This document shows, piece by piece, positions 1 through 23,636 of a stretch of 64,000 bases of DNA. A model generated the notes under the pieces. The model made no database searches and was not told the DNA's origin. It was given only the letters and a program-made list of their open reading frames with translations. This stretch comes from Acarospora socialis (lineage: Eukaryota; Ascomycota; Lecanoromycetes; Acarosporales; Acarosporaceae). A program made the translations under genes and the position numbers. Location: positions 1,674,001 through 1,738,000 of the forward strand of contig JAMYGW020000004.1 in the NCBI GenBank assembly GCA_025617375.2, in the 5' to 3' direction. Position 1 is the stretch's first letter. Each line of letters begins with the position of its first letter.

Positions 1-2980
1 CATTTGTATAGTTTTTGATGAAGAAAGTGATTGTCATTGAAGCTTAATGACTTTTAATAATGATATCTTACATCATACTGATATAAGTACATCAAATTTT
101 GTTCTTTTTTGCACTGATCTGCTTACAGAGCAGTTTCTGTGAACTTAAACTGTGCATTTTTTTCTTGAAGTTTTGATAACTTCTTATTCACAACAATGAA
201 CTATAAGTTGATATTGTTACAGACTGTGCAATAGTTTTTTAACAGTACTTGAAGCAATACTTGAAAATATTATTCAAAAGTATTGAGACTGTCAATGTCT
301 GATTGTGCTGTGACAAGCTTTCTGTCAAGCTTGATTAAATAGATTTAAACTTTATTAATGAACTCATCAAATAACATCTTATTAACAGTAAACTTCATTA
401 AATACTGTCTGTCATTGATGAACAGTCTCTGTTTATACTTTGTTTTGAGTAACTGTTAGATCTTTCTTGCAGTAGTTTTCTTTGCAAGAAGTTCTTAATC
501 ATTCTCACTGATGTAGATGTTCAGTCAATAAAGAGTCTTTGCATTGATCTTTTAATTTTCAAAATCAAGACTGTTTAGTGAAAAGAAAATGCTGCTGCTT
601 TTGAATATGTTATTAACAGAAATTTAACTTTTAATCACAGATCAGAGATCTTCATCTATAAGTCACTGCTTTATGTAAAAAAATTATTGATTAAAGTTTA
701 TTTGAGTGAGAACTGAAACAGATTGTCTTTTTGCAAAGATGTCTTCAAAATTCATAATGTAGCTTGTGACAGCAGTTGACACATAATATAAGAAATAAAT
801 AAACTAAAGTAATAAGATGTACAAAAGAAGATAATGTAAATAAGAGAAAAGATATGTGTTAAATATTTTTCTTTGATGAAGACAGTGAATACTTATTCAT
901 CTTGTTGACTCATAATAAGCTGTCAAAACTACAGTGCTCATTTTGAGCTGCTGCTTGCTTGTTTGTCTGTATGAAACACATATTAAGTTGTTGTATATGC
1001 TTATTTGTTCACTGTAAAATGCATAGTAAGAGCTGCTTACTCATTTGTCTTCAATGAAACTCATATCAAGTATCATGTATCTTGTTTTGTCTAATGTAAA
1101 ACTTCATATCAAGAATCAAAACACTAAAACAGTATACACTTTCTCTATAAAGCTTCTTGCTAATCTGAGCTCATAATTTATTGAGAGATAATAGAATACT
1201 CATATTATATTATTGACTAACTGTCTATCTAGTGAAATATACATTATTAACTTAACTGTAATCAACATAAATTGTAAAGATTGTCTATCTGCATACTCTG
1301 TCATGCAGATTATATGAATAATGAGTAATTTCTGATACTAGTTTCAACTAAAACTATGAAAGCAGCTAGAACATCACACTTCTCAACAAGTACAACAATT
1401 AACAAAGATAATCATCAAAAGATATATTAAGTTGAGCAGTATGTATTACTTTCATGATTTCTTCTTCAATTTTAACAGTTTTATTTAATATATTCTTAAT
1501 TAATAATCATTCTGAAAGAGATTTAATGATATTAGAAGACTGTTAATTTATTGATATTAAAACTTTTTTTCTCAAGAGTTACTCAGCAAATTTATCTTTT
1601 CAATGAGCAGTTACAAATTTCAAATGTTTACTGACAGACAAATATCTTATAAGTATTGCAGAAAGCTGTGAAGAAATTCTTTGAAAAAAATAGTATAATT
1701 TAAAACTTCTTCAATACAAAATTTTAATAACTACTAGACATCAATTTCTGTGCTATTTATGTTAAATATATTATGATTTAAGTTAAAAATATGATCTTGA
1801 TTGAGCAGTTTTACAAGTGACTCTTATTTTATGACATTATTTCATCAGAATTTATACATTAAATTAAAATATGTAATATAGTTAAGTTTGTAGTCTGCAA
1901 ATAAGAGATAACTTTGAGATCAAATTCAAATATTATGTAGTATGCTTCTACTGCAGCAAAGTAATAAGTTTATTTTGAAATTTAAAGAAATTGTAAACAT
2001 TAACAAATAAACTGAGTTTATTGACTTTTAGTTTTTTCATTTTCAGTTTATTAAAATTAATATTAACAACTTTTGCTTTCTTGATCTTTTAGACAGTTGA
2101 AAAATATATAAAGTATTAAAATGATGTATTAAAAAGAAGAACTCACTTAATTTACAGAAAAAAATACTGATTTGTGATATTTATTAAGTTTAATACATCT
2201 TTCATCACTCTCTATAACACAATCTTAATTTTTTTTATCAGCTTGATCAACATCATTTTCTTCATCATTTTTATTACAATTTTCATCATCATCTTCATTA
2301 AATTCACAACTCTCATCATTATCTTCATCAAACAAATACAAAGACAGATTATTTAAATGCTCAATTTTCTTCTTTTTTTTCTTGTTCAAATTCACAATTC
2401 AGTTATCATTCTTTTCACTGTTTAAAGTTTCATCATTTATTTCATTATCTGATAAATAAATCTGAATACTTTTTACAGTTTTAAGATTACAATCAGAGTT
2501 TTGTTCAATCAGACTCTTAATGATAACTGAAGTTGAAATTGTATAACTGAGCAAAATAATAAGTGTTTATGTTCATTAGAAAGTTTTGTTAAAATACTTA
2601 CTCAATATTTATGTTCTTAATGTTTTCTTAATTAATGATTTACTGCTGAAATTGTTTTATATAAGTTTGAGAATTAAAGTTGTCTGTAATCTCAAGACTT
2701 TGTTAACTTACTAAATACTCAATTTTTTCTCATTGACAAATGATCAAATTAAGATTTTAACTCATCAGATCATTAAGCTGTGAATAAATTTATAAGTAAA
2801 TATTAATTTTAATGCATTATTTTATTATTATACTCTGCTACTTACATCTGAAGATAAGATCTTTTTTTTTGACTCAGTATTTTTGTTTGTTGTGACAATT
2901 TTAAAATTTTTCTTTTCATTTTTCAGATCTTTGAACTCTGCTTTGAGTTGAATTTTATGTTTAATACACTGAATTTCTGC

Positions 2981-3140
2981 TATGTGCACAATGTGTTAAG
3001 TGAAAGAAGAATTGTCTTTTCTAAGCTTATCAAATCAGTTAGATATATAGATAAAAGATAAACTTCATAGCAAGATGAATTTCATTGTGATATAAGCAAC
3101 AGTAAGATAAAAAAGACATATCAGTAGTTTTATGAGTGAA
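2981..3140 (+). repeat. Direct repeat copy A flanking the Gypsy element
   Basis: This stretch matches 11,160-11,320 in the same orientation. The two share words such as TATGTGCACA, AGAAGAATTGTCTTTTCTAA and AGATATATAGAT, and most differences are transitions. The two copies lie outside the Gypsy LTRs, so the Gypsy element probably inserted into an older repeat, or the copies are remnants of the same family. Weaker similarity may continue past 3,140. The family is not identified. Confidence 0.6.
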
Positions 3141-4703
3141 CTCATAACAGTCTGTCAGCAAAGCAAATAAAATAGTGTTTCATTATTATATCAATATAAA
3201 TTTTCTTCTTAAATTCTTTTACAACAAAATCACTTTTCTATCTGTTCTGTCATTATGTTTGAATTTCTTTATTAACTTTTTGATATATTTAAGATTTTTA
3301 ATGTTGATTCAATTGTCAAACTCAGATCTGTGTTTTACTCATTATGTTAGATATTTTGTGATAAATCTGTGTTCTTTTTAATACATGCATTTTCAAAGCA
3401 GTCATTTTATCTTTCATTCTGATTCAGCATCTAATGTTGTAATAACTGTGTCTGAATGTTTTGATTGAGAATATTGATATGAATTGTCTTTGAGTTGTGA
3501 TGCAGATTTGAGATGAGTAATTGATACAATATTGTGAATCTTTCAAGTAGTTAATAGATTTAAATGATAAACTAATTGTTTTACTTGTTCTGTGACACAT
3601 AATGATTTAATGAATTGTTGTTTTAACTTTTTATTTTGACTGATGAGATTAGATAAGATATATTCACAGTGTAATTGTAAAGTAACTGCATTGCTCATGC
3701 TGAAGAATTACAACAAGTGTGCTTTGTCATAATATTTTTTCATACATATTGCAACAAAAGCAATATCATTCTTCACATTGATGTGAGCTGATCAGTATTG
3801 ATTGATAGTGATGAGCTTAATTTATTTTAATAATGACTTCAATAAATCACCTGAGTTAATCACATCATTACAAGATAGATTCAGTGAGATTTGCACTGAA
3901 TAAACTTTCTTTTTGACAAAGTTAAGTTCATCAACACAGATAAGATTGAGAACTTTATGCATTTAAAAATCAAATAAGATTTAATTCAAACTTAGATTCA
4001 TAGAGCTGTATCTGATAAAGTTATTGAGTGTGATCTGTAAATGCAGTAAGATGATAAGTCAATGATGCAAAACTACTTTAATAACTTGATTAGTAATCTT
4101 GAAACTATTATCAGTTTATGAATAATAGATCATAGAAAACATCAAATTTACATGTAATTGATGAAATAAATCTTTTCACAAAACTGCTGTAAATTTGCAA
4201 TCTTGATCTGACAAAATTGTTTGTAACAAGTTTCAATTCAATAAGATAAGATAATTCATTAAATATGTCATTCAATCTTTAACTGTCATGATTTTTCATT
4301 CTAATATAAAGATAATAGTCTTACTAAATTTGTCAATAATCAACAAAATTGTGTTGTATTCTTCTGATAAAGTTGATAGAGTAAGAATAAAGTTGATGAT
4401 AAAAACATGTAATAATCATAAAAATGTGAGAATGAACTGTATAAATTTATATGAATGATGCTGTGATGTTTGCATTAGTTAACACTGCAAACAATGACAA
4501 ACATATTTATACAGATGTTTAGATAAATTTGATAGATATAGACTGTCAGTGAAATACTCATGAGTATATGCATATTTTGAGTGATTCATAAAGTCATAAG
4601 TTAAAACAAAGACTTCTTCATACAAATATGTAAAAATACACAGTTAATGTTCTTTCTTGATGTCTTTATAATAAAAAAAACTTTATATACATATATAAAG
4701 TAA

Positions 4704-5063
4704 TGTAATGTTCTCACAGAAGATTTCTCTCATATAAGAACTAAGAGTTAATGCTTATTAATATAAAAGTGTGGTCTGAAATGATTTTGATCTTTTGTCT
4801 TAAATTGTTATTTAAGTTAAACATGATTGTTTTCATAAGAAAAACAACTTTACTATATAGAATGAGCTTGATGTTTCTGTGTTGAGCACTCTTGATGTTT
4901 TGATGTCTCAATATTGAGAAATTGAGCTCTCAGCTTGTCTACTTATTATTGAGCTGTTACACTGTTATGTAACTGCTGTTTAACAGTTCTTCTCATACAC
5001 ACTTCAAATAAACTCTTGAGTATAAATCTGCAAGTTTCTTTCTTACAAAATATAATTATAACA
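4704..5063 (-). repeat. Gypsy LTR (3' LTR of the element)
   Basis: It begins TGTAATGTTC and ends ATAACA as read on the plus strand. It shares a conserved core, AAGTTAAACATGATT followed by TTTTCATAAGAAAAA, with the LTR at 10,508-10,868, and in reverse orientation with the solo LTR at 26,880-27,230. Confidence 0.75.
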
Positions 5064-5129
5064 TTATTTTCTCTCTTCAGATGCTAGTTCTTTAGAGTTT
5101 ATTTAAGTGAAAGTATATAACAAAACTCA

Positions 5130-5324
5130 TTGTCAGTAATGATGCTTTCTAAAAATTTCAATTGTCTAAGAATTGCAAAGAAAATTCAACTCAATGATAA
5201 TCTCATCATATTTTCTTGTGAATTCTGTACTGTCTGTGATCTCAATTGCTTTGTTATGATTGATAAAAGACTGAAATGTGATAAGTATACTTGTCATGAT
5301 CATTCATGCATTGCAGTTTTGTGA
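5130..5324 (+). pseudogene. Antisense Cys-rich ORF remnant inside the Gypsy element
   Basis: A 64-residue frame lies between the integrase region and the LTR but on the strand opposite to gag-pol. It has closely spaced cysteines (CEFCTVCDLNC, then CDKYTCHDHSC), and the next few hundred bases can still be read as a helical, charged stretch. Cys-rich ORFs of this type are common passengers of fungal repeats. The role is unknown. It is a fossil fragment and no function is claimed. Confidence 0.4.
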
Positions 5325-7121
5325 AAGTCTCTCAACAGAATTTGTCTTTTTCTTCAAAAGAAAATAAGTGATGCAAATATAACTCTTGATGCTCTTGCTG
5401 TCAAGATGATACATCTTCAAAAAATTTTAAATCAAACAAATCATTGTGTCACACAGAAGACTGACTGTCTTGCTGTTGAACTTAATAGTGATAATGATGA
5501 GATTGAGAATGAAGATTCTCAAACAATGTCATAATTTGTTAACTTGATGTCTTCATTCTTCTGAGCTAATATTAACTTTTTTTCTCAAAATGTTGAAGTG
5601 TTTTCACACAGTTCTTGAAATTTTCTTGAGTTCTCAGATATTTTTCAAGATATTGTAATCTTTTTATTTGACAAGATAGTGAACTTTTTCACTAATCATT
5701 CTCTTTTCTAGAATGTTTTCAACTTCATATTCTTTATTGAGTTTGACAGATGTTTCAATGATTTAAAGTGATATAAACTGATTGCAGTGCTGTAGCATGA
5801 ATGCATGAAATATTGAGTGTATTCTTATCTTCTTAAGTAAATTCAACTCATAGCTTATCTTCTTGATGTTTCATATGATCTTAAATGATTCAATATTCTT
5901 ATTCTCTAACTTCTTGCTTTTCTCTTTAATCTGTATATTATTTATTTTTAAATATATCTTCTCTTCTTCTTTGAATAATTTTGTCTTTGTTGTTTGTTCT
6001 ATCTGCTGTTCAATTCATCTCATTAGATCTTGATGCAGTTTCTTTATCTGTGTAATATCTAGAATTATTTTTTGACTCTGTGATCTGTGTTTTTCAGAAT
6101 CTCATCATACTTTTGAATTGTAATTATAGTTCACATAGAAAGACATTTTTTCTGTGATTTTGTTCTTTGTGTTGTTATATACAAACTGTATTGTTAACAA
6201 CAGTCATACTTAGTTGTTCTGATTCTTATTGATATAGTGTTTTAAGTATGTTTTCACTGTTTAATTCATTCATTTGCTTTGTTTATCTGTCTGTGAGTAA
6301 TATACTGTTAATATCTTGTGTTTTATTCTGAGTTCTGCTGTGAGCATTTCTCAAAACTTGTTTGTAAACAGCTTGTCTCTGTCAATGATAAATTCTTTTG
6401 ATAGTTCATGATTGTTAATTAATTTTTGCAGTATAATGTACATTAATACTGATGCTATTGTGATTTCTTTGAATAGAATGAACATTGTATACTTAATTAA
6501 TCTATTCACTATAGTCAATATACTATTGAATTTTATTCTTCATGCTGAATTCTTCAACAGTGATAGTTTCATGATGAAATTCATGATAACTGACTTTCAT
6601 GATGTACTCAGTGCATTTAGTTGTGTTACTTTGTTATATTGTTTGTCTCAGTTAATTTTATTTCTTTGACATGAGTTGCACTCAGCAATCATTTTGATGA
6701 TTCAGTTTCTAAAATCACTAATGTTGCATCTTTTTTGCATTAAATTCTCAGTGCATTTAACTTTTAAATATTCTTCAGTTCTGCTGTAGTGATATATTTC
6801 AATGAGTTCTTTGTTCATCAAGAAAACTTGCTTTATCTTGTACATTGCTGCTAAGTTCTTCATGAGAATTTCTTTGTTGTCTTTGCTGAGAATTTTGACA
6901 TAAACTTACTTCACTTCTTCATGATCAGATTGTCTGTTCAGAGTATTTACTTCATTATTTTCATTATTCTTCTTGTAATGAATCTGAAATTCAAAGTTCA
7001 TTAACTGCTCTGCTCAACAAATCTGTCATTAATTAAGTTATTTTGTCATTGCAAAGTTTCTCAGATTCTTATGATTCATATAGATCTGAATTGACTTGCT
7101 TGTTTTTGCAAAATAAGATCT

Positions 7122-8060
7122 TCAATTTTGCAGTGCTTTTACTATCACAAGAAGTTTTTTGTCATGAATCTCATATCTTTTCTTGAGTTCTGACAGTTTT
7201 CTAGATTGAAATGTAATAAATTTTTGTTGTTCATCTTTGATCTGATATAAACATGTGTTTATTGTGAAACTTAAAGCATTGATTTTCAGTATCTTCTCAC
7301 ATGCTGATTGAAGTATCACAAGATGAGTTGTTTCACTAAAACTTCTTTTTAGTGCATAAAACACTTGTTCTTATTTCTTGTCTCAATATCATCTCTTATT
7401 TTTTCATATCAGTTGTGTGAAAGACTCTGTGATTCTCATATAGTGTGATACAAACTTTCAGTAAGAGTTTGTCAGTTCTAGAAAGATCTGTACTTTCTTG
7501 ACTTATATTGATATTGATTAGTATTTGACTGCTGCTGTTTTTTCTGAGTTTTTCTTAATATATTCAAGTCAAATCACATAGTTTAGAAATCTAACTTTCT
7601 GAGTTTCAAATCTACTTTTTGACTCTTTCACATACAGAATTCTCTCTTTAAACTTTTCTAATATTTTGTGTACATGTCTGCAGTGCTTCTCAAGATTCTT
7701 TGAGTATATCAGAATATTATTGAGATATGTGATTACAAAGTCATTGAGATATTCTCTCAGCATATCAATGATCAATTTTTGAAAGATTGCTAGCACATTT
7801 TTAAACTCAAATGACATAACAGTGTATTCATAATGTCTGTATCTTATTCAAAACACTGTCTTTCATTCTTTTTCTTTCTTCATTCTGACTTGATAATAGG
7901 TGTTTTTGAGATCTAAGTTTGTAAATCACTTAATTTTGTCTAGTTGATCTTGCAGTTCTTCTATCAATGACAAAGAATAACTGTTTTGTCTGATTATGTT
8001 GTTTAGCTGTCAGTAATTGACATATAATCTTTTGTTGTCATTCTTCTTTGATACAAACAG
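7122..8060 (-). pseudogene. Gypsy pol fragment: reverse transcriptase and RNase H
   Basis: Minus-strand frames here carry typical Ty3/Gypsy features. A segment at 7,569-7,817 resembles the RT region around the catalytic box followed by the usual helical H-x(3)-V-x(2)-I-L-x-K-F stretch. A segment at 7,122-7,364 contains SRKLSELKKRYEIHDKKLL, which matches the RNase H signature 'SRKL-x(4)-RY-x(4)-K-E-LL'. Upstream (to about 8,060) the RT fingers region is still recognisable. It is decayed and non-functional. Confidence 0.75.
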
Positions 8061-9489
8061 AATTGAATATTCTGCTAATGATTTTAATGATTTGATGAAC
8101 TTTTTTTTTAGATTTTCTTCAAGATAATCTTGCACTATCTTGAGTTGATCTTCACTCATTGAGTATATCAACATTCACTTAAATTGTTCTTCTTTCAATA
8201 GCAGTATCTCATGATTTCATGACTTATATTTCAGTAAGCACATCTCTGATATCTTTAAGATCTTATATGTGTGTTTCATAGTACATATCTTTGCTGTACT
8301 TCAATCAATTTGTAAGTTTTAGTTTTTTAAGCATGACATTTCAAGTATTATGCTGTACTTGTCTGTTTTGAGTACATTTAATATTATTTCTTGATGTTGT
8401 TCACTGACATTTGTCATTGCATGTATCTCTTTATTAACATTTTTGATGACTTCATTTGTTATATGTATCTTCACTAAGTACAGTGCTCATATAATCTTGA
8501 GTTTTAGTCTTCAAGCTAGTCTCTTTAAAATATAGTTGTTCATAACTTCTGAGTCTATCAGAACATTAATGATTTTTAATAGTTGATTTTTTTAATTAAT
8601 ATTTATTCAAATTGTAAATTTGTCTCTTCTATCTTCTTTATGAGATGTGTAAAGCTTTTTATTCTTTAGTTTTATTGAGAAAACTCATAGTTTTTTGTCA
8701 TTACTATGTTCTTAACTCTTCTTCATAGACTTGTGAACCACTCAGGTTCTTTTCTTGAAAGTAAGTTTATGTACTTTTTTTCATATTGTTTAATGTTTTA
8801 TTTGAAGTGTAGTTTTAATTCATACTGATCATACTTCATCTACAATTAACTCTCAATAACTTTAACTCTTTACAAATATTCAAAAGATATATATTCTCTG
8901 CTGAAGATTCATTGATCTTTATTTTTCAGATTATATCTCATCAGTAAGAGTATTTTGATCTTATGACTTTTTGTTTGTCATATAAGTTATCTTAATACTA
9001 TCTTGTCTGATTCTTCTTCAGTTATCAGTTGTATCTTCTTCATTAGTTTATCTAGTTTGAAGTATGCTTTTGCTTCTTGTTTTTGAGCTTGCATTTTTTT
9101 AAACTCTTTTTTCAGCATTGTTTTGCTGTACTGTGTCACTTTTCTTTGAGTATTTAGATTTTTATCAATCTTGATTCAGTATTCTTTGAGAATTCTGTCT
9201 CAGCAACATTCAAACTTTCTTTTGTGAGTGTATCACTATTAAAAAATATTTATGATTCATCAATCTGAAATTCACAGTCATCAGTTTCATCAATGCTGTC
9301 ATTAAGAATATTATTCTCATTTTCAGCATTAAAGATGTCTTCTCTGACATTAAAGATATCTTTTTTGACATTTTTCTTTGTGAGAATAGCTAGTTTTTTC
9401 TTGTGAGTTAATCAATCTGTTGTATTATATTCTCTTTTGACACTTTTGCACAATTTCTTCAGATATCATCTGACTTCATTTTTACTGCT

Positions 9490-10450
9490 CATATGTGTTC
9501 AGCACATATCATTGTAACAAGTTATTTAGCTGAGAACATCATACACTATATATATATTCTTCTTAACTGTCACTGCTGCTTTTTTTCTTTTAGCTCAAGA
9601 CTTTTTGCAGTTAATCACTATATGTTCAGATTTTCAACAGTTATAACATGTTTACATCTCATTTTACAGTATTTAAAACTCATAGAATCATTTCTTCTGA
9701 CATTTAAACTTCACTTATTTAGTCTTTCATGACTTCTGATGATGCTTTTTAATTGTATTGAGATTTATTGAATTGTTTTTTCAATATAGTTGAGTGAGCT
9801 TTCTTCTTCATTCAACTCTTGATGATACTCAGTACTCTATATGTTTTATTCATTGTTTTTATTGTTAACTGTTTATGTTGATGAATACATTAATCATTTT
9901 TTGTAGAGTCTTAAGTCAATTCATTTGAGCTATTTTATCTTTAATAAACTTGTGAAGTCTTCAGTAATAATGTAATGTGAGAAAGTTATTATTTCAATCT
10001 ATTAAGATCACAATTCTCTGAAACTTCATCACATACTTAATTGTTGATTCTTTTATCTGAATCACTTGCAGTTATTTTTCTGCTGCTTACTTTTCATTAT
10101 TACTTTAAAGTTTTTCTGTAGCTCTTTCTTGAATCTTTTATAGTTAGAAAATATAAATTCTCTGTTCATCTGTTGTTCTGCTGTTGTTATTGTGAGAAAC
10201 TTGTGCAGCTTGAAATTGACTCAATTGAAAACTGCATTCTTCATGTACAACATAGTGAATAGACTCTTGTTCATTTTAAACTTAAACTTATTTTGATTGA
10301 ATTCAATATATAACTTGAGCTTGATCAAGAATGCTTACAGCTTTTCTCTCTCATCAGTGAACACATTGAGTGACAAAATTTTAAATACATCAATTATCTG
10401 TGAAAAACTCTGAAAATAAACTTAACTTATTAAAGCTGACTTCTGTGCTG
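9490..10450 (-). pseudogene. Gypsy gag region remnant
   Basis: This lies just inside the 5' LTR on the minus strand. Near 9,600-9,660 the spacing C-x2-C-x4-H-x4-C of a retroviral-type zinc knuckle can still be seen. The rest is too decayed to assign in detail. Its position between the LTR and pol fits gag. Confidence 0.5.
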
Positions 10451-10507
10451 TAAAAGTGATTATTTTTATATTATAAGAGTATTCAAAGTGTTATAATCTA
10501 ACTAAAG

Positions 10508-10868
10508 TGTGACATTCAATCTGAGCTTTCTCAAATATGTTAGAATTAAGATATTTAATCTTATTAATATAAGAGTTTTCTGATACAGTGGTGTTGAGTA
10601 AATACTTTATTGTAACAAACATTAAGTAAGTTAAACATGATTCTTTTCATAAGAAAAATGATCATGACTATATACTGAGTTTGTTCATCAGTTTTGTTGT
10701 TGAGTCTGTTGAGATGACTTGCTTATGCAATCTGTTGAGCTTACTTATTAAGTTCATCATTAAGCATGTTAAAATATCACATGACTACTGTCTAAATATT
10801 TCTCAAATATACATCTCTTGTGTATACATATTAGTTTACTTTAAGTTTATTCTGACTTAATCATAACA
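10508..10868 (-). repeat. Gypsy LTR (5' LTR of the element)
   Basis: It begins TGTGACATTC and ends ATAACA on the plus strand. It aligns along its length with 4,704-5,063 and, reversed, with 26,880-27,230. The differences among the three are mostly transitions. Confidence 0.75.
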
Positions 10869-11159
10869 CTTAAATAGATTTGATGAAATGAGCAGAACAA
10901 AGAGATAAATTCTATAAAATGAGCAAATCAATGAAATAAAGTAACAAAACTATCACTGATCTACTGATTTAGAATGATGAGACAGATATAAGATAGATGA
11001 AATTAAATAGAATAAAATAAAAACAATAATATAACTATGACTCAATTCAGAGATCTGATAGACTTGATAATCAATGATGTTAAAAATTTTAATGTAATGA
11101 GCAATGAATTAATAATTGTTGTTGTTATTATGATAAAGTCATTGATGCTATCAAATTGC

Positions 11160-11320
11160 TATGTGCACATTGTATTAAGTAAAAGAAGAATTGTCTTTTC
11201 TAAACTTATTAAATTAGCTAGATATATAGATGAGAAGTAAGCTTCATAGTAAGATGAATCATGTTGTAATATAAGTGACAGTAAGATAAGAAAGACATAC
11301 TGATAGTTTTATAAGCAAAT
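11160..11320 (+). repeat. Direct repeat copy B flanking the Gypsy element
   Basis: This is the partner of 2,981-3,140, about 8.18 kb downstream in the same orientation. Both copies begin TATGTGCACA and share several 10-20 base words. It lies about 290 bp outside the right Gypsy LTR. Confidence 0.6.
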
Positions 11321-14177
11321 TTATAACAATTTCTTTTTCAAGTCATGCAGCTAATTTCATCAGTGTATGTTGTGCATAAAATAGTGAAATCATATCACTT
11401 TGTTTCACTCAAAATCATCACTTCTTAAAATCTTCAATAACATCAGTTTTCATCTGCACTTTAATATTCTTATTAACATCAATATACTTTTTGTTCTTTC
11501 TGAGTTTCTTGAAAGCATAAAACTTTGTGTTTCAATTATGTTTGAGAGTTTGATCACAACATTTAAACATAAAAAATAAATTTCTGCATTAAATGTGATC
11601 TGATTCTGTATTGCAGTGTTTTAAAAAATTATTCTCTGATTTACAAGATGTGTCAAAGTCAGATTTTATTACTTAATTTAATTTCTTAAGTGTATCAATC
11701 TCATATTTTTCTTCTTCTCTTCATTTCTGAATTTAATTTGCAATGTTGTTATTCTCATCATTCTTTTTCTGAAAGTGAAGAGTCAGCTTGAAGTCTGTTA
11801 AAAAAATGTATTAAAAATACTGATTCAGTTTTCTTAATTTGATGTTTTTTTTTTCAACATTTTATAAATTGTTACACAATATTCAATGAATTTAAAAGTC
11901 TATAAAACATAAGATAATAGAGTATAGTGTCTGAAAACTTATGAGAAATTAAGTAATATTTAAGTTACAATGAGAAACAAATTATCTGTTAACTAAAATA
12001 CTGATATATTTTACTGTTCAAAATGCAGTAATATTCATTTTTCAGTTTTCTTCATTACACAGTACAAATTGAGAAAACAGCTTTTCATTCTTTTCAATTT
12101 ACTTGAACATAATGACTAAACAAAAGAAACACACAAAATCAAGTAGTAAATACAATCATCTTAACATTTTAATGCTCAATTTTAACACATTTGCACACAA
12201 AAACTACTTTATAAAAAATATATTGCTATCAGAAGTTTACAGATCTATTAATTTCAAGTTAGTTTTTTATTCAACTGATCAAAGTAATCTGTATAAATGA
12301 CAGTCAAATATGTCTTAATTATATTTATTGACAGAAAAGTGTCATATAAGCTTTATAAAAGATTGTCAAAATCTTTTTGATGACTTATTTTGAAGATAAA
12401 ACTTAACTATTAAGTTTTCTTAATGATCAGTTTTCTAATTTAATCAATAGATATAAATCTTTGTGTTATACACATCAAGTAAGTTATTATTTAAATAAAA
12501 AATATAACTTTTGTGCAGAAATTTTATGATTGTCTGACATCTTTTGAATTGATGCAAAATGTGAAACAATAAATTAGTCTAAGCTAGTAGTAGAGTTATC
12601 AACTTATCATATTTGATTGTTTAATTATTAAAAATAATCATTAGAAATGTGCTCTACATAGTATATAAAATATTATATCTTTAATGTAATGTTCTATGAG
12701 ATTTCATAAATTATATACAACAAATGTACACAAAGTATATATCACATGATTGATTTAGATTGACTCACAAATCAAATTAAAGCAATTAAACTGATTCTGA
12801 TTTGATTTGTAAATTAAGATTTTTGATTTGACTTGTGAGTTGAGTTAAAGTCAGATTATGAGTCAGTCTGACTTGATGATCACTTTAAATATGATACTTT
12901 GTAAATAAGAAATAAACTGAGTAAATATGATAAATATAATGATTTGCAGTAAGAAGAACTGCTGTAAAGATAAAATGTAAAAAGTTAAAAACTAATATTG
13001 ATTTTAATTTTGATATTGTGTTCTGAAAAAGTTTGATATTTTTTTTAAACTTGTAAATTTAAATCTGTAAATTGCAATATTGTGTATATAGTTTTTTCAG
13101 ATTTTTTTGCATTTAATGCTTATCATCATCAGTATATTCACTTCATGTCTAGTTTCTGAATTAGATTTATAATTTTTTTCATTTTTAACAGTTGTCAATC
13201 TTCAATTATAATTTCTATTCTATGCTCTTGTTTTTCAAAATTAATTAAAATACTTATTTTTTTTTATCTGTCTGTCAATAATATTGCATCATTTTATGAT
13301 CATTAATTGTTGTAAAAATAACTGTTTATCTTTATAGTTTAGATGACAGACACACAAAGTGAAAAATTTAAAATTTAAAGATGTAAGAAACATAGTATAT
13401 ATTCTGTCAAATACTAATTTAATATATTATGTAAACAAAAAGAATCTGAATTCTAAATTGTAAAACTAAATTGTTTATATAATATTCAGTATATATGTAT
13501 AAAAGTGTGCAAGAAGCTTGAAGCTTAACTTTGTTATTTTATATGAGTTTTGAAAAAATTTAACTATTTAAACAAATAAAATTATTCACTTTTATCTGTC
13601 AGATCACTTTACAATACTTTAATTCTTTAAAGAACAGTTACTTAATTAAATATTAATGTTGAAATTTGAAAGAAATGTAAATAGATTACTGCAAATACTG
13701 CTGCTATGTATGAAAAAATAAATATTATGTTTTGTAACAATTAAATTCTATTAATTTTTGTTTTTTGTTTGTTAGTAAAGATATGATATTGATTTAATTA
13801 TGATAATTAAAAACTCATTGATCTTCAAAAAACAGATTGACAGTTAATTAGTTATGATCTGTAATAGTGTAATTAATAAAAGTCAGTATTTTTAAAAATA
13901 ATTTCTCTTTTTTAAACTACACAATAATGTAATTGAGATTTATAGTGCTGTAATATTTGTACAAAATCTTTATCAAAGCTGTCTGCTTTTTTCAGAATGT
14001 TATTACTTAAATTTATTAATAAAGTCATCAGTACTCAGTACTCAATTTAATCTGTTTCTGAAGTACAATCTTTATTTACTTTACACTGATAATATTTGAG
14101 TGTTGATATATTAAAATCTGTTGAGTGTTTGCAAAATATTTAAAAAAATTTGAATCTTGATGTAAACAGAGTGTAAA

Positions 14178-14340
14178 CTTACACACTTAGTGATATAATG
14201 AGATTTACTTGAGTTATAAAATCACTATAACTGTGCTTATATAACACAGTTACTACTAAGTTTCTATATAACTATAGTACTGATATAGCAGTTACACTGT
14301 TTGTCACATACAAAGATCTTACTCTAATATGTATTTTTAT
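14178..14340 (+). repeat. Direct repeat, copy 1 (365-bp spacing)
   Basis: This aligns with 14,543-14,705 without obvious gaps, at a constant offset of 365 bases. Shared words include ACACACTTAG, TACTAAGTTTCTATATAACT and CACAGTTA. Nearly all differences are C/T or G/A. It may be a local tandem duplication or the two ends of a small decayed element at the edge of the AT-rich block. Confidence 0.65.
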
Positions 14341-14542
14341 AGTTACATTTTCTCTTGAGATGTTGTATTCTCACAAGCTTGTGCTAACTGCTGTGCTTTA
14401 GCTGTTAGAATAGTAGATTTTTAAGAGTGAAATCTTGCAAGTCACACATCAAAATTCACATATTCTTGCTTGATGCACACACACTCAGAGATAAGTATCA
14501 GACTCAAATGCACAATCTATATGAACACAGTTATACTATAAG

Positions 14543-14705
14543 CTTGCACACTTAGCAACACAATGAAATTCACTTGAGTCAAAAGATCACTATAACTGCA
14601 CTCATATGACACAGTTATTACTAAGTTTCTATATAACTGTAGTACTGATGCAGCAGTCACACTGTTCATTATACACAAAGATCTTGCTTTAACACATACT
14701 TTTAC
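14543..14705 (+). repeat. Direct repeat, copy 2 (365-bp spacing)
   Basis: This is the partner of 14,178-14,340. It is richer in CpA and GpC than copy 1, so the two copies have been mutated to different degrees. Confidence 0.65.
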
Positions 14706-15298
14706 ACAGAGTTTTTTAATTTCTTTGATCAGATTCAACATAAAGTTCTGCTCAAGAAAGACTGTTTGTATGTTAATTACAATATACTGTGATACATAGT
14801 GCAATGTATGTTTCTATGTGCAAGACTGTGGTAGCACTTGATAGTAGTCGTCGCTCAGGCTATAAGATTGTGGAGATAGTGAAAATCATACTGCTGTATG
14901 CAAACTATTTGTTAGCCTCAGGCTAGGTTACGGAGAAGGTGGCAGATTATATTGACTAAACTACTTATAACTCATCAGAACATCCAAAGCAACAGGAATG
15001 TCTTTCCCAAAGACAAATTAGTATACTTTGCTAAGATTTGAAGTGAGGAGCATTATGATTGAAGCGTTATATAGTCATGTGCCTATGACGCTATGTCAGC
15101 GGAGAGTGCTGCCAGAGAATCTAGGCATCTTCCCTCAGCCTTACTAGTTTGCCTCTTCACTCTACTGCCGTTGAACCATCAGTATAGAGATTAGGAAGGG
15201 TTCAGCGGCAAGTCATAGTTCACGAAGGTGATTTCCTACTTTATGGCCTCTGACGGATTGCTTATGATGAGGAACAGCTGCAATTCACCTCAATCGAT

Positions 15299-17119
15299 AT
15301 GGACCGAGTGGCCAATTACTTTTCAACACTTCAGCCTCTAGATCAATCTCACGAGCACATTCGATTACTTGTCATCCATGCGGCTCATCAAGCCGATGCA
15401 CCGATTGAATGTAGAATATTTCTTGCTTCTCTACACGATACCAAGACGCATGCAATGCTTTCGTACGCCTGGGGCGATCCAGGCACGACAAGCCCTATTT
15501 TCGTCAACGGTATCGAACACAATGTTACCTTGAATCTCAAAACCGCCCTTCTGTACTTACGAAACACGGGTGGTACAGAAAGACCACTCTGGATTGACGC
15601 TTTATGCATCAATCAGAAGGATATACTCGAGAAGAATGTGCAAGTCATGTACATGTCAAAGATCTATGAAAAGGCGTACTTAACGTTAGTTTGGTTAGGA
15701 GAAGGGGAAGAAGACAGCAGTATGGCTATGAAGAACATCCGATTGTTGGGAGATATCTACAGTGATATCAAGAACAACCGTATAAAAGAGAAGACAATTG
15801 AAAAAGTCTTAGACGAGTTAGAAAGTCGCATAGGGTTCGATCTATGGAGCATTCAAAATATCCTTGCATTTGTCGATGTGTTTGAGCGGCCATGGTGGCG
15901 GAGAAGATGGATAATTCAGGAAGCGGCCCTCGCGAAGCGGGTACTCATGATGTACGGCGGTGAAACTGTGCCGTGGTCTCATTTCGTTGCAACGTCCCTA
16001 GTCCTGAGTTGGATCCGGGGACGCTGGGCCCAGCGTACATGTCAGCCACATCCAAGTGACATTGCCGGCTTCCTATTGTGGTCCCAAATCAATTGCCTCA
16101 GAATCCAAGCGATCCGTAACAAAAGGCCCTATGCTAACCTTCTGGAATTGCTCGGCGATTGTAGGACCTGCAAAGAAACCGACCCTCGAGACGCTATATA
16201 CGGCCTTCTCTCTCTTGCCTCTGGTCCGTCTGACTTGATCCCTGACTACCGGAAGACAACGCGAGAAGTTTATCACGAGTATGCGCTAAAGGAACTTTCT
16301 CAGAGCGACTCGCTAGCAATTCTTCATCATTGCTTCTACTCTCAAACTAGCGTTGACGATGCACTTCCCTCGTGGGTTCCAGACTGGCGATTCAAGGACA
16401 CATGGATACTTCCTGCCGACTTCAATGCGACTGGTAACGTGACATCATCATTTACCGTCTCTGAAAGTAGGAACAGACTTCAGATCCAATCTCTGGTGTT
16501 CGGGGAGATAAGTAAAACTTATAGTGTCCCATCGGCTCTTGTGAACACCTCAGGTGGACAGGAATGGATGGAGTTGATTCTGAATCAACAAGGGGCAACC
16601 AAAAGGTCGCAGAAGTGGATTTGTTTAATCCTACGTGCAATCGCGCTTGATCGATCCCCGGAAGGAAAGGATTTGAGCGGTGATTCAGGCCCTGGCATTG
16701 ATTTGCTGGCTGGATTTCTCCATTTTCTCAAGGAGAAATGCAAAGTCACGATAGAAATGGTTTGGGAGGGGATAACGCACTCTGCAAAGACGCCAGAGAA
16801 CATGGCCGAGTTGTCCGAGAAATTCCACACTCTCGCCACTCATGCAAACGGGTTGTCATTCCGCGATTTGCTGACCAGAATCAAAAGAAGAAGGATCATT
16901 TGTACAGAACACGGGTTCCTGGGTAATGCGCCCCCAAACGTATTGCAACAGGATTTGATTTGCATCATAGCTGGTTGTCAGGCTCCTTGTGTGATCCGAA
17001 AAGTTGGACATGGTTACCTTTTAATAGGTCAATGTTTTGTTGTGGATGCTATGCATGGTGAGTTGTTAGAGGAGGTTGCGTGCGGGAACTTGCAATGGGA
17101 ACAGCTTGATCTAGTCTAA
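15299..17119 (+). CDS. HET-domain (heterokaryon incompatibility) protein
   Basis: This is a single-exon, 606-residue protein. The HET domain spans roughly residues 50-210. It shows the family motifs LSYAWGDP (around residue 53), LWIDALCINQ (around residue 100) and an R-P-W-W-x-R-R-W-I-x-Q-E stretch near residue 200. The C-terminal part has the usual 'VC-x-I-x-G ... P-x-V-I-R ... YLLIGQCFV' ending of this family. HET proteins trigger cell death when incompatible fungal individuals fuse, or act as signalling domains in related NLR systems. The partner and trigger of this copy cannot be read from the sequence. It begins less than 500 bp from the AT-rich compartment and codes at normal GC without visible decay. 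The length is typical for stand-alone HET proteins. Confidence 0.9.
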   Translation: MDRVANYFSTLQPLDQSHEHIRLLVIHAAHQADAPIECRIFLASLHDTKTHAMLSYAWGDPGTTSPIFVNGIEHNVTLNLKTALLYLRNTGGTERPLWIDALCINQKDILEKNVQVMYMSKIYEKAYLTLVWLGEGEEDSSMAMKNIRLLGDIYSDIKNNRIKEKTIEKVLDELESRIGFDLWSIQNILAFVDVFERPWWRRRWIIQEAALAKRVLMMYGGETVPWSHFVATSLVLSWIRGRWAQRTCQPHPSDIAGFLLWSQINCLRIQAIRNKRPYANLLELLGDCRTCKETDPRDAIYGLLSLASGPSDLIPDYRKTTREVYHEYALKELSQSDSLAILHHCFYSQTSVDDALPSWVPDWRFKDTWILPADFNATGNVTSSFTVSESRNRLQIQSLVFGEISKTYSVPSALVNTSGGQEWMELILNQQGATKRSQKWICLILRAIALDRSPEGKDLSGDSGPGIDLLAGFLHFLKEKCKVTIEMVWEGITHSAKTPENMAELSEKFHTLATHANGLSFRDLLTRIKRRRIICTEHGFLGNAPPNVLQQDLICIIAGCQAPCVIRKVGHGYLLIGQCFVVDAMHGELLEEVACGNLQWEQLDLV

Positions 17120-19140
17120 TGAAACTATGGCCTTTCTTTCTTCACCATTATGCACTTCAATAGTGTAGCAGGTTATGTGTTACGACTCAATTCAACTGCA
17201 CTTCAACTTCTTTTCGAACCCCTGGCGGATGTCTGAAGGGGTTTGGACTGAGTTATGCTCAGTTATGTCAGCTAAATTTTCATAAACTCAAGGCCTAATA
17301 TGACTGAATCATGCTCTGATATGTGTGGTGGCGTAGAAATTTGCTCACCGCCTTCGTACTCGTAAGGATTCACCGCCATGTCATTCGCTTACCTACTCTG
17401 TACAGTGTACTCAACTGGACATGGCCCCCGACATTACAGAGCTAGCGGACAAAGGTCGCAGCAGAGCCAAAAACCAGCTTGCATTATTGGGTACCAGATA
17501 TCATAGGTATGTCTACCTTTGTACATGATAGGAATAATAACAGCAACACCGACACTTTGAACCGGATCTTTTACCAGGTCTCACTGATAATCTTACCAGC
17601 ATCGTAACATGCATTCTGTGTTGCTGTGCACTTCTCATCATTCAGAGAACAGGAGGAGTTTGATGTGCTCACTTTTGGCCTGCCATCATTTCTGTCCACT
17701 ACCAGGTAGTCAGCCACAGCCACAACCGAGCGCGAATCAGAAACAATCCGGGGCTGTTAGGGGGCCGTTGGGGCTGAAACAACAAAGAGGAAGGAGCACA
17801 GGGACTGTAGGATTCACTTTGCCACCCAGAATCTTTCCTTGTCGCTGGCGACCGAATCTTCACTACCCTACGCCTTCATTATCCTCTCGAAGAACATAAA
17901 CCACTGGCGGAGTTTTGGTAGCGCTGGCATAAAGCTCCATTATTGGCAAGGCATACCGCCTACCAGTGCGACAGTGGGACCGCCTGATTTACCGCAGTGA
18001 GGATTAAACCTCGTGTAGCGTCTCCGAACACGCGTTGAAAGACCACCGTGAAGAGTGGGAGAGATTGAAGCAGGTGGTGGTGGACTCAACTCCTGGACGG
18101 AAACGTTCGCTCGCCAGAAAAGAGTTGAAGGCCTATGAAAGGCAACATAGATATCAATATCGCTGCGAGTGTTGGGCGGCACCCCCTCCCTATCAAGCAT
18201 AGGTGACTGTATGTTGTTGTTCGTCAGAGCCTTTCATTCTCTCATCACAACAGTTCAGTAACTAACTCACATCCAAGTTTCAAGACCAACACCAAGACCC
18301 TTTCGATCCCGTACCTTGACCGTCCACCACCGGCACACTCATCTGTCAGGCCAGAGCGGACGCCTTCTTCCTGTTCGCCTCTCGGTGCACAAGACTCAGT
18401 CGGATGACGATCTTGCATGAGGGTCAGAAGCACGTGGTGGATCTTGTCATGTGGACTTTAGTGATCTGTGATTTGTTCGAGAGATGCATGGATAATGCGC
18501 ACCTAGACTCTTGCTCTACCAATGTACCTTGAATTCTCTGCTCTGCGAGGGTGATCTCTCAAGCGCTCCTCCCTTCATAGTCGCCTTATACAGAGCGCTC
18601 CCGCCGTGCTGCTCGAACAGACTGGCAGTTTGCCGCAGTATATCAATCAGTAACATTTGACGCCGGTGCATCTTAGGCAAACTCTGCGAGAGCGGTGGAC
18701 AAGGCCAAGCCTTGGCGCAATGCCCTGCTGCAGTTTCACTGCTGTACGCAGTGGACCCTCCCTCACTCTGGGGTCCTCCCTCACTCTGGGGTCTTCTCTC
18801 ACCTCATAATTCCCGTGTGTAGAGTCGCTTGTAGGCCCGGGACCCTTGTCTTGCGCGCTGCTTCCCAGGGTCCATGGAGATCCGTTTCGGAATGACAAAA
18901 GGGAAGACTTGGACGGAAGCATTTTGGACTCGCGGTGGACGTCTTGCCAAACTGTTCAGCCTCAACAATGACGGGACCCTGATAAGGCGTCTTTCATCAG
19001 CCGAGAAGGCGGCCCCATCCAATGCCAAGCGAAGGTATTTGCCGTAACCCATACATGATTGCCATTGCTGCAAAACACTCATATACGGAGCACCCCCGGA
19101 TATTATCTCTACTTAAGAAAAACATGATGATTGTGAAATG
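17120..19140. other. Intergenic, no supported gene
   Basis: About 2 kb of normal composition lies between the HET gene and a nested inverted-repeat element. Open frames here are short and lack recognisable domains. A 17-18 base unit (CTCCCTCACTCTGGGGT) is repeated twice at about 18,764-18,800. Nothing else is supported. Confidence 0.5.
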
Positions 19141-19192
19141 ACCCGTGATTCCGGTATACCACCAATCAATATTCATAGGCCACTGACTCACT

Positions 19193-19539
19193 GTAGACCA
19201 CCCTGATTGGGTAGAGGTTCCAGGCTTTTAACCCTAAACCCACACCTAAACTCATGCCTGAACCCATGGACAAAATCCACCTGAAGTTCAAAGAGAGTAG
19301 CGAAAGAAGCTAAGACAGCATGAACAGTCAAGACAGCGAAGTCACAGAGAATAGAAGTAGAGTCATATATCGGTACCGATACCGCTGTTCCAAGACTGAA
19401 ACCCTAAGAAAGTCCGTGTAGAAACGTCATACACACCGCATGCTAATATGGGTTCAGGCATGAACTGGGTTTAGGTGTGGGTTTAAGTGTGGGTTTAGGC
19501 TTAAAGCCTGGAACCTCTACCCAATCAGGGGTGGTCTAC
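19193..19539. mobile_element. Inner MITE-like inverted-repeat element
   Basis: This 347-bp element has long inverted arms of about 75 bp (19,193-19,267 and 19,448-19,539). They begin GTAGACCACC, continue through TGATTGGGTAGAGGTTCCAG, and then run into repeats of the type CACACCTAAAC. There is no coding frame. The arm tip resembles a motif in the outer element's arms, so the two may be related families. Confidence 0.7.
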
Positions 19540-19730
19540 CGTGAAACGCGGTAGGCTACGAGTCGTTGATCACTATACTGAAGCAATTGGAGGATCCAGT
19601 TCAGAGGATGTAGGATGCTCGATTTCTATGAACAGAGATTTTTCCCTGCTTTTATACTAGCAAATACAGTTAGTTAGCCGAGAGACGGCTACCTGAAAGC
19701 GAAGGGGCCTGTGAAGCGACAAAAATCAAG

Positions 19731-19793
19731 GAGCGACAGCGAGGTAGGAAAGAGCGACAGCGAGGTAGGAAAGAGCGACAACGAGGCCGGAAA
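19731..19793 (+). repeat. 21-bp tandem repeat, three copies
   Basis: Three head-to-tail copies of GAGCGACAGCGAGGTAGGAA plus A. The first two are identical; the third differs at two positions. It lies in the right half of the outer MITE-like element. Confidence 0.85.
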
Positions 19794-20158
19794 AGAAAGT
19801 GCGCTCCACAACGGCTAGTAAGTCAGTGGACTAGGATCATTGATTTGTGGTCTACCGGAATCACAGGTCTTGTGAAATAAACTGGGTGTTTAGAGGGACG
19901 TCCGTAAGCATCACGGGAGCATAGGCGGCGATTGGTCTGATTTTAGATCTTCTAGATCGATGATGGATTGGTGACGGCTACACTTCTGGATGACATAAAC
20001 CGCTTTTCTATGATTCGGCTTCATTTTGCCCTCGCAGTAACCGTGTCTCTACTCCCAGGTAGGTAAGTTGTAGATTTACTTTCCGACCTAGGCAAGAATA
20101 TAGCATGGAGCTATTTCATGCTCTTATATACGCCAGAGGAAACGCTACGGGATCCCCC

Positions 20159-22073
20159 CTAAGGTACTGTTCTGATGACGCTGGCACTACCTTCCCTGTC
20201 ACCCTCAATCTCCACGACCGGTCCCATGTACCCCTTCCTGGCATAGACGGCGTAATAGCCCACGCTGAAGATGACCATAGCCCCCAGGACCAGACTGCTG
20301 TAATTCATGGTTTGAGCTGTGGTCGGCGTAATCGGTGGCCAGAAGCTGAAAAACAAGGTGATGGTCAAGTAGGCACATGCGAAAGCATTGTTGACGATGC
20401 CGAAAAGGCCCTGTATGCGCCATGGGCCCCAGATCAGCCGGTCGCGCGCGTTGTTGGCGAGAGGGTCGGGGGAGTCAAACGAGAGCTGGATGCCATTGGT
20501 GCAGCGACGGTAGAGCAACAGACCGCTGGTGATCAGATAGGAGGTGTACAGACCGGCGACGGAGAGAGAGACTATGACGGTGAAGACGGTGGAGGAGCCA
20601 ATGTTGATGAGTGAAAGCAAGCAAGCGACAACGGTCGTGACGCCGATGGACCAGAGGGGCACAGCGGTGCGCGAATGGACCTTGCGTCATGTCAGTTGGT
20701 CGGACGATCTCATAATGAAAAACTAAGGTCTTCTGTAACCTACCTTGTGCAAAATCCGCCAACAAGGCATGCCACGGTCGCGAGCGAATGACCAGAACAT
20801 GCGGGATGTGGAGGTAAGGACCGCGACAGAGCAACAGAAGCAGAGGACGATCATAAGCGCGACCATGGTCGCGCTGCCAGCAACCGAGTTTGTGGCTTGA
20901 AGGAAAATCTCCATGAACGGATACCCCGTATTCGTGTTGAGCGCAGCGGTGATATCTCCGAGACAGAATAACAAAGCCATAAGCATACCAAAGCCCAAAC
21001 CCCCATTAAGTAGGATACTGAGTATGATACACCGTGGTATCACGATGGAAGGGTTACGGACTTCCTCGGCCAGCTACCTTCGTTTAGCAAAGGTCATGAA
21101 GGCACTTTCTCCAGGCACTCACGTGAAAAGCTCCATCAACACCTGCCGGCAGATGTCAGAGTCGGCTTTCAACGGTATATGTTTTCCGGTTACTCACCAA
21201 CGAAAGCGAAGAGATTCCCGAGTAGACCAACGAAGAATGACACACCTTGGGTAGGGAAACCGCCTTGATTGAGAAAGGTACTGAACACGTCTGAGGCATT
21301 CCCATGAGGCCCAAGAACCACCAACGGAATGAGTATGGCGAAGAAGCCAACGACATGTAAGATCAAAATCAACACCTCAAACGTTGGCAGGAGACTGCTG
21401 ACAACGGTATTAAAGAAAAGTGCAACAAACACGACTGCCCAGTACAGAAGAGTGCCATGCCATGATTTGGGGTCGTAGGCAGGAACCGTCAAAACAATCA
21501 ACCCTTGGACGAGAGTCCCAGTCAAATATGCTGAGGACGCAAAAGTGGCTTGCCAGCCACCAACCGTAAGCCAGCCAGTGATATAACTGAGGAACTTCCG
21601 GCAAGAGCCAGGAGCAAGCATCGAGACCCAGTGATACTGTCCACCGGCCGTCGGGGCCATAGAAACGAGTTCCGACAGAACCGAGAAGACGCTCAGGCTG
21701 CCAACCCAGATGAGGATGAAGCCATAAATAACGCCTGCAGGACCTCCGTTCTGAAAACCGGCAAGAAACAGGACCAGGGAGCCCTCCCAGGTGACCAGAA
21801 TTGTGCAAGTCAAGCCCAAGATCGAGAAAAGTCCGAAATTGCGCTTTTTGAACGTCAGTGTGCTGTCAAGCGCCGAAGGAATTGGGAGAAGCTAACTCTC
21901 AAGACAGGTTTCTTCCCCAAGCGGAGCAACTCACGCCGGTCACGGTCTTCGCTCGTCTGCTGAACTTCGAGCATTGTCTGTCCAGCTTTGGTATCTTCGA
22001 TCGTCGTTACGGCCTGGAGCTCCCCGGAATCGCCGTGGACCCTCATGACGGACAAAGCAGATAGAGGAACCAA
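20159..22073 (-). CDS. APC-superfamily amino acid/choline-type permease
   Basis: Exons on the minus strand: 22,073-21,897, 21,843-21,198, 21,142-21,123, 21,073-20,744, 20,680-20,159 (introns 53, 55, 49 and 63 nt). The model closes at 564 residues, the usual size of fungal GABA/choline/amino-acid permeases of the UGA4/HNM1/BAT1 type. The N-terminus has RLGKKPVLR-RNFG followed by about twelve hydrophobic segments. TWEGS, APTAGGQYHW and LAEEVRNPSIVIPR match the family's conserved first helix, second helix and loop. It is expected in the plasma membrane, importing amino acids, GABA or choline; the substrate is not decidable. The third exon is only 20 nt and restores the conserved GVDGAFHLAEEV segment. 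A downstream in-frame ATG at 22,046 is an alternative start. The neighbours suggest no pathway. Confidence 0.88.
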
Positions 22074-22858
22074 ATGTCAATGTAACAGAATTGCTCTTCG
22101 ACGATGGAACAATAAGATTCAGCAGAAAGCATTAAGGAGAAGACTCAGGGCTAACCTTTTGTAAGGACTGCGTAAGGTATTGTTAAGGGTGACATTGGAG
22201 CGGGGCGTGCGTTCTGCCCCAACGTGCAGTCTTATCGCTTCATGCAGCTATCCATGTCAACTTCGATACACGTATGTGTACACAGTAGAATGTACTGCAA
22301 GATAGCTTTTGCTTCCTGAGTTACCTATCCCTTACAGCAGCAGTCGTCAATAGTGACTCTCGGTGGTCTAAATCGCACCTTTCCCCCACCCTCATTTACA
22401 ACCCCTCTTGTTGTTGAGAGTCAATGGTGCCATGATGCCTTTCAAGCTCGAAGGATTCGATCCAGTGGCTGATTTTCGGACGAATTATCTACGAGTGGGA
22501 GTCTTCAAGAGTTCCACCTCATACATTCTTCCGCCTACTTTGTCCCGTCCTCGGCATGAAATACAGACTAGATTCGCAGATGATTTGATCAATTGATTTG
22601 GTTGATCGCACGTACCTATTTCTTTTTTTGACCTGAGCCGCTCCAGTAAGGTAATGGATGCTTTGCTTGAGTAAGGTATGGCAATAGGGAGGTTTGCACC
22701 GATGTCCAGACACACAGCAACTAACCTGCCCGGGTTAGCAAGCTCTGATAGTATGTGCTAAATTAGGCCTAGTTCTTCTGTTATATAGTCTAGTGGATCT
22801 AATGCTTGGTTATCTTGCAATGCTAGTCATTTTAGATTGCTCTATACATAGTAGTTCT
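22074..22858. other. Intergenic, no supported gene
   Basis: This holds the presumed 5' region of the permease, then sequence without recognisable coding or repeat features up to the small MITE. Confidence 0.45.
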
Positions 22859-23083
22859 AGGTCGTAAATGAATGCCAATCATTTCGTAATGGAGCACTCC
22901 AATACAGCACGAGACTGGAAAGTACTGAGGTATAGATTCTTTGGGAAAGCTTTCTGTGTTATATGGAGGTCTCCATATTATGTTGTATGCTATGGAGTAT
23001 GGATACTTATGGATGTATTTTTTAATGAATCTGAGGAGCACTTCATACATCCTGAAGAGCCACACGGCATTCATTTACGACCT
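22859..23083. mobile_element. Small MITE, copy 1
   Basis: This 225-bp element has perfect 18-bp terminal inverted repeats, AGGTCGTAAATGAATGCC, at 22,859-22,876 and 23,066-23,083. The centre contains a near-palindrome (ATATGGAGGTCTCCATATTA). A diverged copy in opposite orientation occurs at about 57,190-57,380, so this is a repeat family. It has no coding capacity of its own. Confidence 0.75.
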
Positions 23084-23636
23084 TGAATCATATGCCGGGA
23101 TAGTAACTTAGTCCTCGCGTACCACTGTTGTAAGTGGGATCAAGTCAAATAAGTTGCAATAAGTTAAGTGGCACTGCCTGTTCAAGAAGTGTCTAACCTG
23201 AACAGTGACTTGTTCAAGTTCGAGGACCTGAGTCATCATCGTAAGCCCGATCCATACCCTAAACCGGAGGAGAGGTAAACACTTCGTCTACCATACCCTA
23301 CAGGCAGGCCGAAGGTGGGATCTATCTTGAGATCACAGAAAGGACAATTGATTGTTTTGACAATGATAATTCTTTAGAATGACAGTCTGCAGAAGTCATT
23401 AACTTAGAATCCTTACAGAGAAGATTAGCAGAACATCAACGTCGAAAGAGGAGGGCTTCAGGTTGTTAATGGGGTTTGAAGTATGTAGTTGGACATTTGC
23501 TTTTTGATTTGGACAGGAAAGCATGCGCTAGTTCACTTGTGTATGTGGCGTATGGCAGTCTGGGCAGCCTCAGCTCCCTATGAAACAATCAATTAATCAC
23601 GAAGCCAGCCATATATACAGAAGCACGTACAAACCC
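23084..23636. other. Intergenic, no supported gene
   Basis: This lies between the MITE and the 3' end of the hydrolase gene. It has normal composition and no domain-bearing frame. Confidence 0.45.

Follow-up and report, generated by a model that had tools for sequence, protein, structure and literature searches.

Apparent C-to-T mutation of repeats at cytosines followed by guanine or cytosine, with CpA largely spared, in the fungus Acarospora socialis

Repeat-induced point mutation (RIP), as it operates in Neurospora crassa and Leptosphaeria maculans, converts C to T on both strands of repeated DNA, leaves AT-rich compartments beside normal genes and goes together with a RID-class gene; its main target is CpA, and in L. 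maculans ~90% of the C-to-T sites in transposable elements carry this dinucleotide (PMC4352252; here and below, papers cited by PMC number are drawn on in part). The 64,000-nucleotide stretch of Acarospora socialis analyzed here (hereafter the window: positions 1,674,001 to 1,738,000 of contig JAMYGW020000004.1, or G000:C4:1674001-1738000 in our numbering) and the genome around it, 31,147,409 bases in 38 contigs, share all of these features, but CpA is the least mutated context in their repeats. The preference appears to be nearly the reverse of the textbook one: C before G or C (CpS) is mutated, and C before A or T (CpW) is largely spared. We propose, with a probability of roughly 80%, that this reflects a RIP-like defense in which multicopy DNA is mutated from C to T on both strands at CpS sites, CpG being affected at least as readily as CpC, both far more readily than CpT, and CpT at least as readily as CpA.

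Several described systems approach this pattern in part. The mutated transposable elements of Tuber melanosporum, Aspergillus and Microbotryum resemble those of A. socialis in having CpG as a main target, and Tuber likewise encodes RID- and Dim-2-class genes; however, the secondary target is CpA in Tuber and Aspergillus, or there is none (PMC4352252). The same paper (Amselem 2015) names CpA, CpT and CpG signatures, the term CpC being absent from the parts of it available to us, and a kingdom-wide survey of fungi from 2025 describes RIP-like defenses as sharing a CpA preference, again with CpC absent from its text as far as this was accessible (PMC12543289). Partial precedents for CpC come from three fungi. 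The hypermutation of the basidiomycete Rhizoctonia solani AG8 is also from C to T with an emphasis on CpG, and the spacing in its Table 2 makes CpC the most frequent context (214 bp, with 370 for CpG, 422 for CpA and 491 for CpT; PMC4014442), but these differences lie between nuclei and affect genes and repeats alike, whereas here genes are untouched and repeats cleared. In Zymoseptoria tritici, the transposons are methylated at CG, CA and, as a minor site, CC (PMC8016269), but the Dim2-linked mitotic mutations fall mainly in CA, which is spared here. In Stagonospora repeats, CpC is depleted together with CpA (PMC2621366). Further, the RIP of the orbiliomycete Monacrosporium haptotylum shares a lesser preference for CpA, according to its authors (PMC3828140), but its TpA index is raised (1.12), and no TpA excess is seen here. 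Within the open-licence literature we found no report of a repeat-bounded process that affects CpG and CpC and spares CpA, in the sense that none was seen rather than that none exists. A comparative genome paper on Coccidioides reportedly describes CpG loss in repeats.

An earlier note, made from the letters of the window, had described two AT-rich blocks without CpG, with scattered CC or GG and with frequent CA and TG, and had read them as the product of a RIP-like process with CpS preference or of two processes in succession. Dinucleotide counts bear the description out. The first block (1-14,820; GC content 25.8%), largely composed of mutated repeats with relatives on other contigs, holds 0 CG, 2 CC and 4 GG, where its base composition predicts 246 CG and 492 CC+GG (0 and 6 found); the Poisson probability of such a zero is ~10^-107. 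CA (927 occurrences; observed/expected, o/e, 1.46) and TG (1160; o/e 1.48) stand above expectation and TA below it (o/e 0.73). The second block (25,605-28,738) contains 0 CG, 7 CC and 2 GG, with o/e values of 1.46 for CA and 1.55 for TG, and TpA o/e over the two blocks is 0.57-0.73. A sample at 2,341-2,640, said to lack CG, CC and GG and to hold about 19 CA, has exactly 0, 0, 0 and 19. The GC-rich remainder (28,739-64,000) is ordinary (o/e CG 0.88, CC 0.97, GG 0.98, CA 1.09). Neither of the two outcomes that had been named as pointing away from a CpS preference is seen in the AT-rich blocks: CpC is not normal, and CpA and TpG are not depleted.

The signature recurs elsewhere in the genome. About 199 kb of the assembly was read by coordinates. 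Twenty further stretches were read, three with methyltransferase genes and 17 picked for repeats or because they adjoin the window; the AT-rich parts of all 17 are CpS-poor, one of the stretches (L040) shows additional partly mutated zones with few CpG remaining, and DNA searches of the genome located relatives of the window repeats on other contigs. Because a separate set of blocks had been selected by CG = 0 itself, we based the counts instead on eight stretches chosen as AT-rich throughout (1-14,820 of the window and seven others): in 84,820 bp these hold 0 CpG, 21 CC, 30 GG, 6,141 CA and 6,459 TG. Such scarcity of CC and GG rules out a loss of CpG alone by methylation and deamination, since simulated CpG-only loss leaves CC+GG at 109 per kb versus the 51 observed in all 84,820 bp.

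The mutation has also acted recently, on near-identical copies of a long interspersed nuclear element (LINE). We hand-picked ten reverse-transcriptase stretches with identity 0.96-1.00 (rounded), out of 151 RVT_1 matches, so as to cover open and broken frames, and took the majority of the ten to tell old from new letters. C-to-T columns were found at 4 of 4 CpG and 27 of 41 CpC sites, with 6 of 92 for CpT and 4 of 133 for CpA (CpC versus CpA, Fisher p 2e-17). Altogether, the columns comprise 41 C-to-T changes (both strands), 8 T-to-C changes and 7 transversions, with 8 gap cells set aside. CA+TG stays steady at 132-134 in all ten stretches, and CC+GG falls from 42 to 24.

These figures bear on classical CpA-directed RIP as the main process, which the C-to-T direction, the occurrence in repeats and the presence of a RID-like gene would suit. 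Against it stand the retention of CpA (o/e 1.46, with TpA at 0.73, and 4 of 133 LINE sites mutated) and the usual RIP indices: for 1-14,820, TpA/ApT is 0.81 and (CpA+TpG)/(ApC+GpT) is 1.41, both outside the RIP range, and none of 220 scored windows passes the RIPper cut-offs (taken from PMC6714961) or has a composite index above 0. Simulated CpA RIP yields 1.23/0.14 for these two indices, and no observed profile comes near (0.76/1.48 in the old stretches). By comparison, simulated removal of CpS from gene-like sequence yields 0.42/1.90 at 35% GC and, with a slow loss of CpW added, 0.52/1.83 at 31% GC; a less mutated copy (L046; 0.53/1.75, 32% GC) lies close to the latter model. The in-frame stops agree: among the 150 listed of the 151 RVT_1 matches, 23 are without any, and the others carry 499, namely 418 TGA, 60 TAA and 21 TAG, while TGA makes up 53 of the 75 in 17 DDE_1 matches. 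CpS mutation yields TGA (from CGA, or from TGG via the other strand), not TAA or TAG; the 81 TAA and TAG stops of the RVT_1 matches are consistent with slower CpW loss or older decay. CpA retention, indices, simulation and stops together refute classical RIP as the main process in these repeats, and we accord it next to no probability.

Old copies, compared in pairs, extend the same direction and contexts further back; the pairs share copies and are hence not independent. In 71 of them (at least 500 bp, 78% identity, GC <36% on both sides; 149,915 columns), transitions exceed transversions by 10.5 : 1. Among two-base differences CA/TG is the most frequent (5,042, both strands counted), a pattern that would follow from an ancestral CpG losing its C in some copies and its G in others; differences of the TC/CT type and its complement number 3,314. 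The context of CC was followed in 151 of 336 pairs, those with a minimum of 300 bp and 72% identity: at sites where CC in one copy is preceded by a base other than C and followed by A or T, its counterpart has CC in 599, TC in 478, CT in 74 and TT in 62 of 1,346 cases, so the C that mutates in a CC pair is mostly the 5' one. One transposon site reads CCCA in the window, CTCA in L044 and TTCA in L041, with the C before A retained throughout.

APOBEC3G alters the 3' C of CC. A deaminase of this kind could be considered because CC is among the main targets, but the change is mostly in the 5' C (TC 478 versus CT 74), the DNA-type transposon is mutated like the retroelements, and both strands are affected; we reject APOBEC3G-like CC-to-CT change on which C is altered, and its probability is minimal. 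A search with the APOBEC_N profile gave no match here and none in control genomes either, and hence says little. Returning to the RIP-like activity, numerous C/T differences at CpA and CpT persist between old copies, which shows slower loss in those contexts too. Thus, the CpS preference put forward in the earlier note is strong, as the old-copy, young-LINE and transposon comparisons concur, without being an absolute rule: CpA and CpT are lost as well, far more slowly.

The limits of the mutation were traced at 12 homologous edges of one transposon family with terminal inverted repeats, whose copies are set in ordinary DNA. The copy in the window spans 25,447-28,891 (inverted repeats of ~80-110 bp, TA at the ends); its interior is devoid of CpG and CC/GG, and its outermost ~80-240 bp are partly spared. 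The block limits first noted here, 25,605 and 28,738, mark where CpS is exhausted inside the element, not where the element ends. At 11 of the 12 edges CpG is kept in the flank (3-9 in the last 100 bp). Counted inward from these 11 edges in 40-bp steps (the right edge of L042 omitted), CpG averages 1.55, 0.18 and then 0 (flank baseline 2.09), and CC+GG 4.27, 5.73, 4.27, 4.36, 0.45, 0.36 and then 0 (flank baseline 4.35): CpG is gone past 80 bp and CpC past 240 bp. The depth of retained CpC varies among copies, which indicates that they were not simply duplicated from one mutated source. We considered whether the spared ends simply coincide with the terminal inverted repeats and rejected this, as the inverted repeats match over ~80-110 bp and CpC is kept to copy-specific depths. 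The edge pattern is better explained by recognition of duplicated DNA than by a chromatin state that spreads, and the halt at the ends of this family, together with the C-to-T differences at CpS between copies, supports the RIP-like process with CpS preference.

The unequal depths of CpG and CpC also bring up two separate processes, in which CpG methylation (by DNMT5 or DIM-2) with deamination would clear CpG and a distinct RIP-like activity would clear CpC. Counted from the element ends, CpG does vanish within 80 bp and CpC only past 160-240 bp, and the genome has a DNMT5-like gene, DNMT5 being described as a CpG enzyme (PMC13297926). However, the two losses halt at the same element ends and mark the same young copies, and a single enzyme working at two rates is simpler and accounts equally well for the differing depths; we deem a pair of processes rather less likely than not. 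A further alternative is that 5-methylcytosine deaminates spontaneously and slowly wherever DNA is silenced and methylated, with no activity directed at repeats. That methylation and deamination deplete CpG is well known, the Dim2-dependent transposon methylation of Zymoseptoria prefers CG, then CA, then CC (PMC8016269), and one part of the window, 12,896-14,538, has no relative that our search could find. Yet at 11 of 12 edges the change does not leave the element, and inside it is complete (0 CpG in 84,820 bp), and CpC is strongly mutated where CpA is not, which renders this explanation improbable.

Certain observations nevertheless weigh against the proposed RIP-like defense of repeats. The edge profile derives from one transposon family only; the twelfth edge, on the right of L042, adjoins another cleared AT-rich stretch; and over the 12 edges flank CpG within 300 bp is 3.5-5.2 per 100 bp versus about 4.9-7.7 further out, possibly a slight leakage of mutation into the flanks. 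Strict confinement to repeats is challenged by the aforementioned 12,896-14,538 (about 20-34% GC), which is CpS-free by our counts, yet a DNA search of the genome found no relative of it; this could be a repeat eroded past recognition or a case of mutation outside repeats. In the old stretches, GC (26.5%) is lower than simulated (31-35%) and TpA higher than modelled, which means that more CpW was lost than the model allows. Finally, the changes confined to a single LINE copy are fewer (CpC 12, CpT 4, CpA 3, CpG 2), although CpC leads among them despite its far fewer sites.

As for the agents of the RIP-like process, repeats would be recognized by DNA homology, mutation would occur around mating, on the analogy of Neurospora, and a cytosine-5 methyltransferase would carry out the chemistry. 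By profile and structure matches, RID-, DIM-2- and DNMT5-like genes are all present. In L029, two overlapping frames match PF00145, covering its positions 2-160 and 253-324, the middle being missing as is described for RID/Masc1 (PMC4352252), and the single TGA within the match probably lies in an intron. L028 matches 9bap (E 4.7e-200), listed as DNA (cytosine-5-)-methyltransferase, with a BAH match slightly below the cut-off (29.5 versus 30.8 bits), and in L030 a methylase frame precedes an SNF2 frame with a match to 7r76 (E 6.5e-207), listed as DNA repair protein Rad8; we take 9bap to be Neurospora DIM-2 and 7r76 to be Cryptococcus DNMT5. A RID-class enzyme with altered site preference would be the first candidate for the mutator, with DIM-2 or DNMT5 next. 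The engineered conversion of a bacterial CG methyltransferase to mainly CCA and CCC methylation (PMC10899764) makes a CpG-plus-CpC choice of sites chemically plausible.

More tentatively, and at a little short of even odds, we suggest that one RIP methyltransferase, probably a RID-class enzyme, changed its site in this lineage from CpA to CpS, and that the recently active LINE family responded by shedding most avoidable CpS, its remaining CC/GG being mainly those that codons for glycine, proline and tryptophan, or the junctions of these codons, require. The open-frame LINE stretches (L048-L052) have 35-36% GC and 1-3 CpG per ~750 bp. In L050, the protein sequence demands 30 CpS and leaves 14 avoidable, where 47 avoidable ones are expected at its own GC content of third codon positions (GC3) and 82-83 at a GC3 of 0.5; the other four have 10-14 avoidable CpS. 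This shortage is explained as well by the persistence of lineages that the mutator had already filtered as by adaptation. Many of the long-open-frame LINE reverse-transcriptase matches are grouped at C1:2.65-2.80 Mb, C14:11-85 kb and C10:187-265 kb, possibly a preferred insertion zone or a centromere-like region. Elsewhere, 5.8S rRNA is matched at two loci, C18:106431-106584 and C28:20530-20680.

The wider bearing of these results is that RIP has mostly been described, and sought, as a CpA process, and the repeats of A. socialis, mutated to completion, pass none of the usual cut-offs; index-based surveys could score such species as RIP-free. Further, the system makes it testable which enzyme, and which of its residues, set the sequence target of RIP.

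The remaining features of the window comprise mutated repeats and two gene segments. Within the first AT-rich block, 4,665-10,356 is a mutated retroelement body with 73% identity to L045:3495-9140, which contains a reverse-transcriptase match (C9:532404-532874) and has a copy of a ~353-bp repeat on either side, probably its long terminal repeats. The same ~353-bp repeat is nested in the window's transposon at 26,880-27,232, and the DNA search found many more matches to it across the genome. At 12,001-12,895 lies a CpS-free repeat; its 11 relatives elsewhere, of which 10 are near full length and one is partial, show 81-84% identity. In the AT-rich blocks of the window and of L031-L047, leftover CC amounts to 0.90 per kb for ACC versus 0.16 for TCC, a hint of a preference for the 5' neighbor. 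A stretch at L035:2101-2600, with 45-56% GC, 0 CpG and ordinary CC/GG, is unexplained; a genome search found no other copy of it, short internal repeats aside, and it was not used as evidence. Both gene segments have ordinary CpG and CpC: 28,892-64,000 includes dynamitin, calpain and helicase reading frames, and 14,821-25,446 a HET-domain reading frame at 15,299-17,119. The HET-domain, dynamitin and calpain frames, taken with the RID-, DIM-2- and DNMT5-like genes, suggest a filamentous ascomycete. Over 14,801-15,300, CpG and CC return stepwise from the AT-rich block toward that frame.

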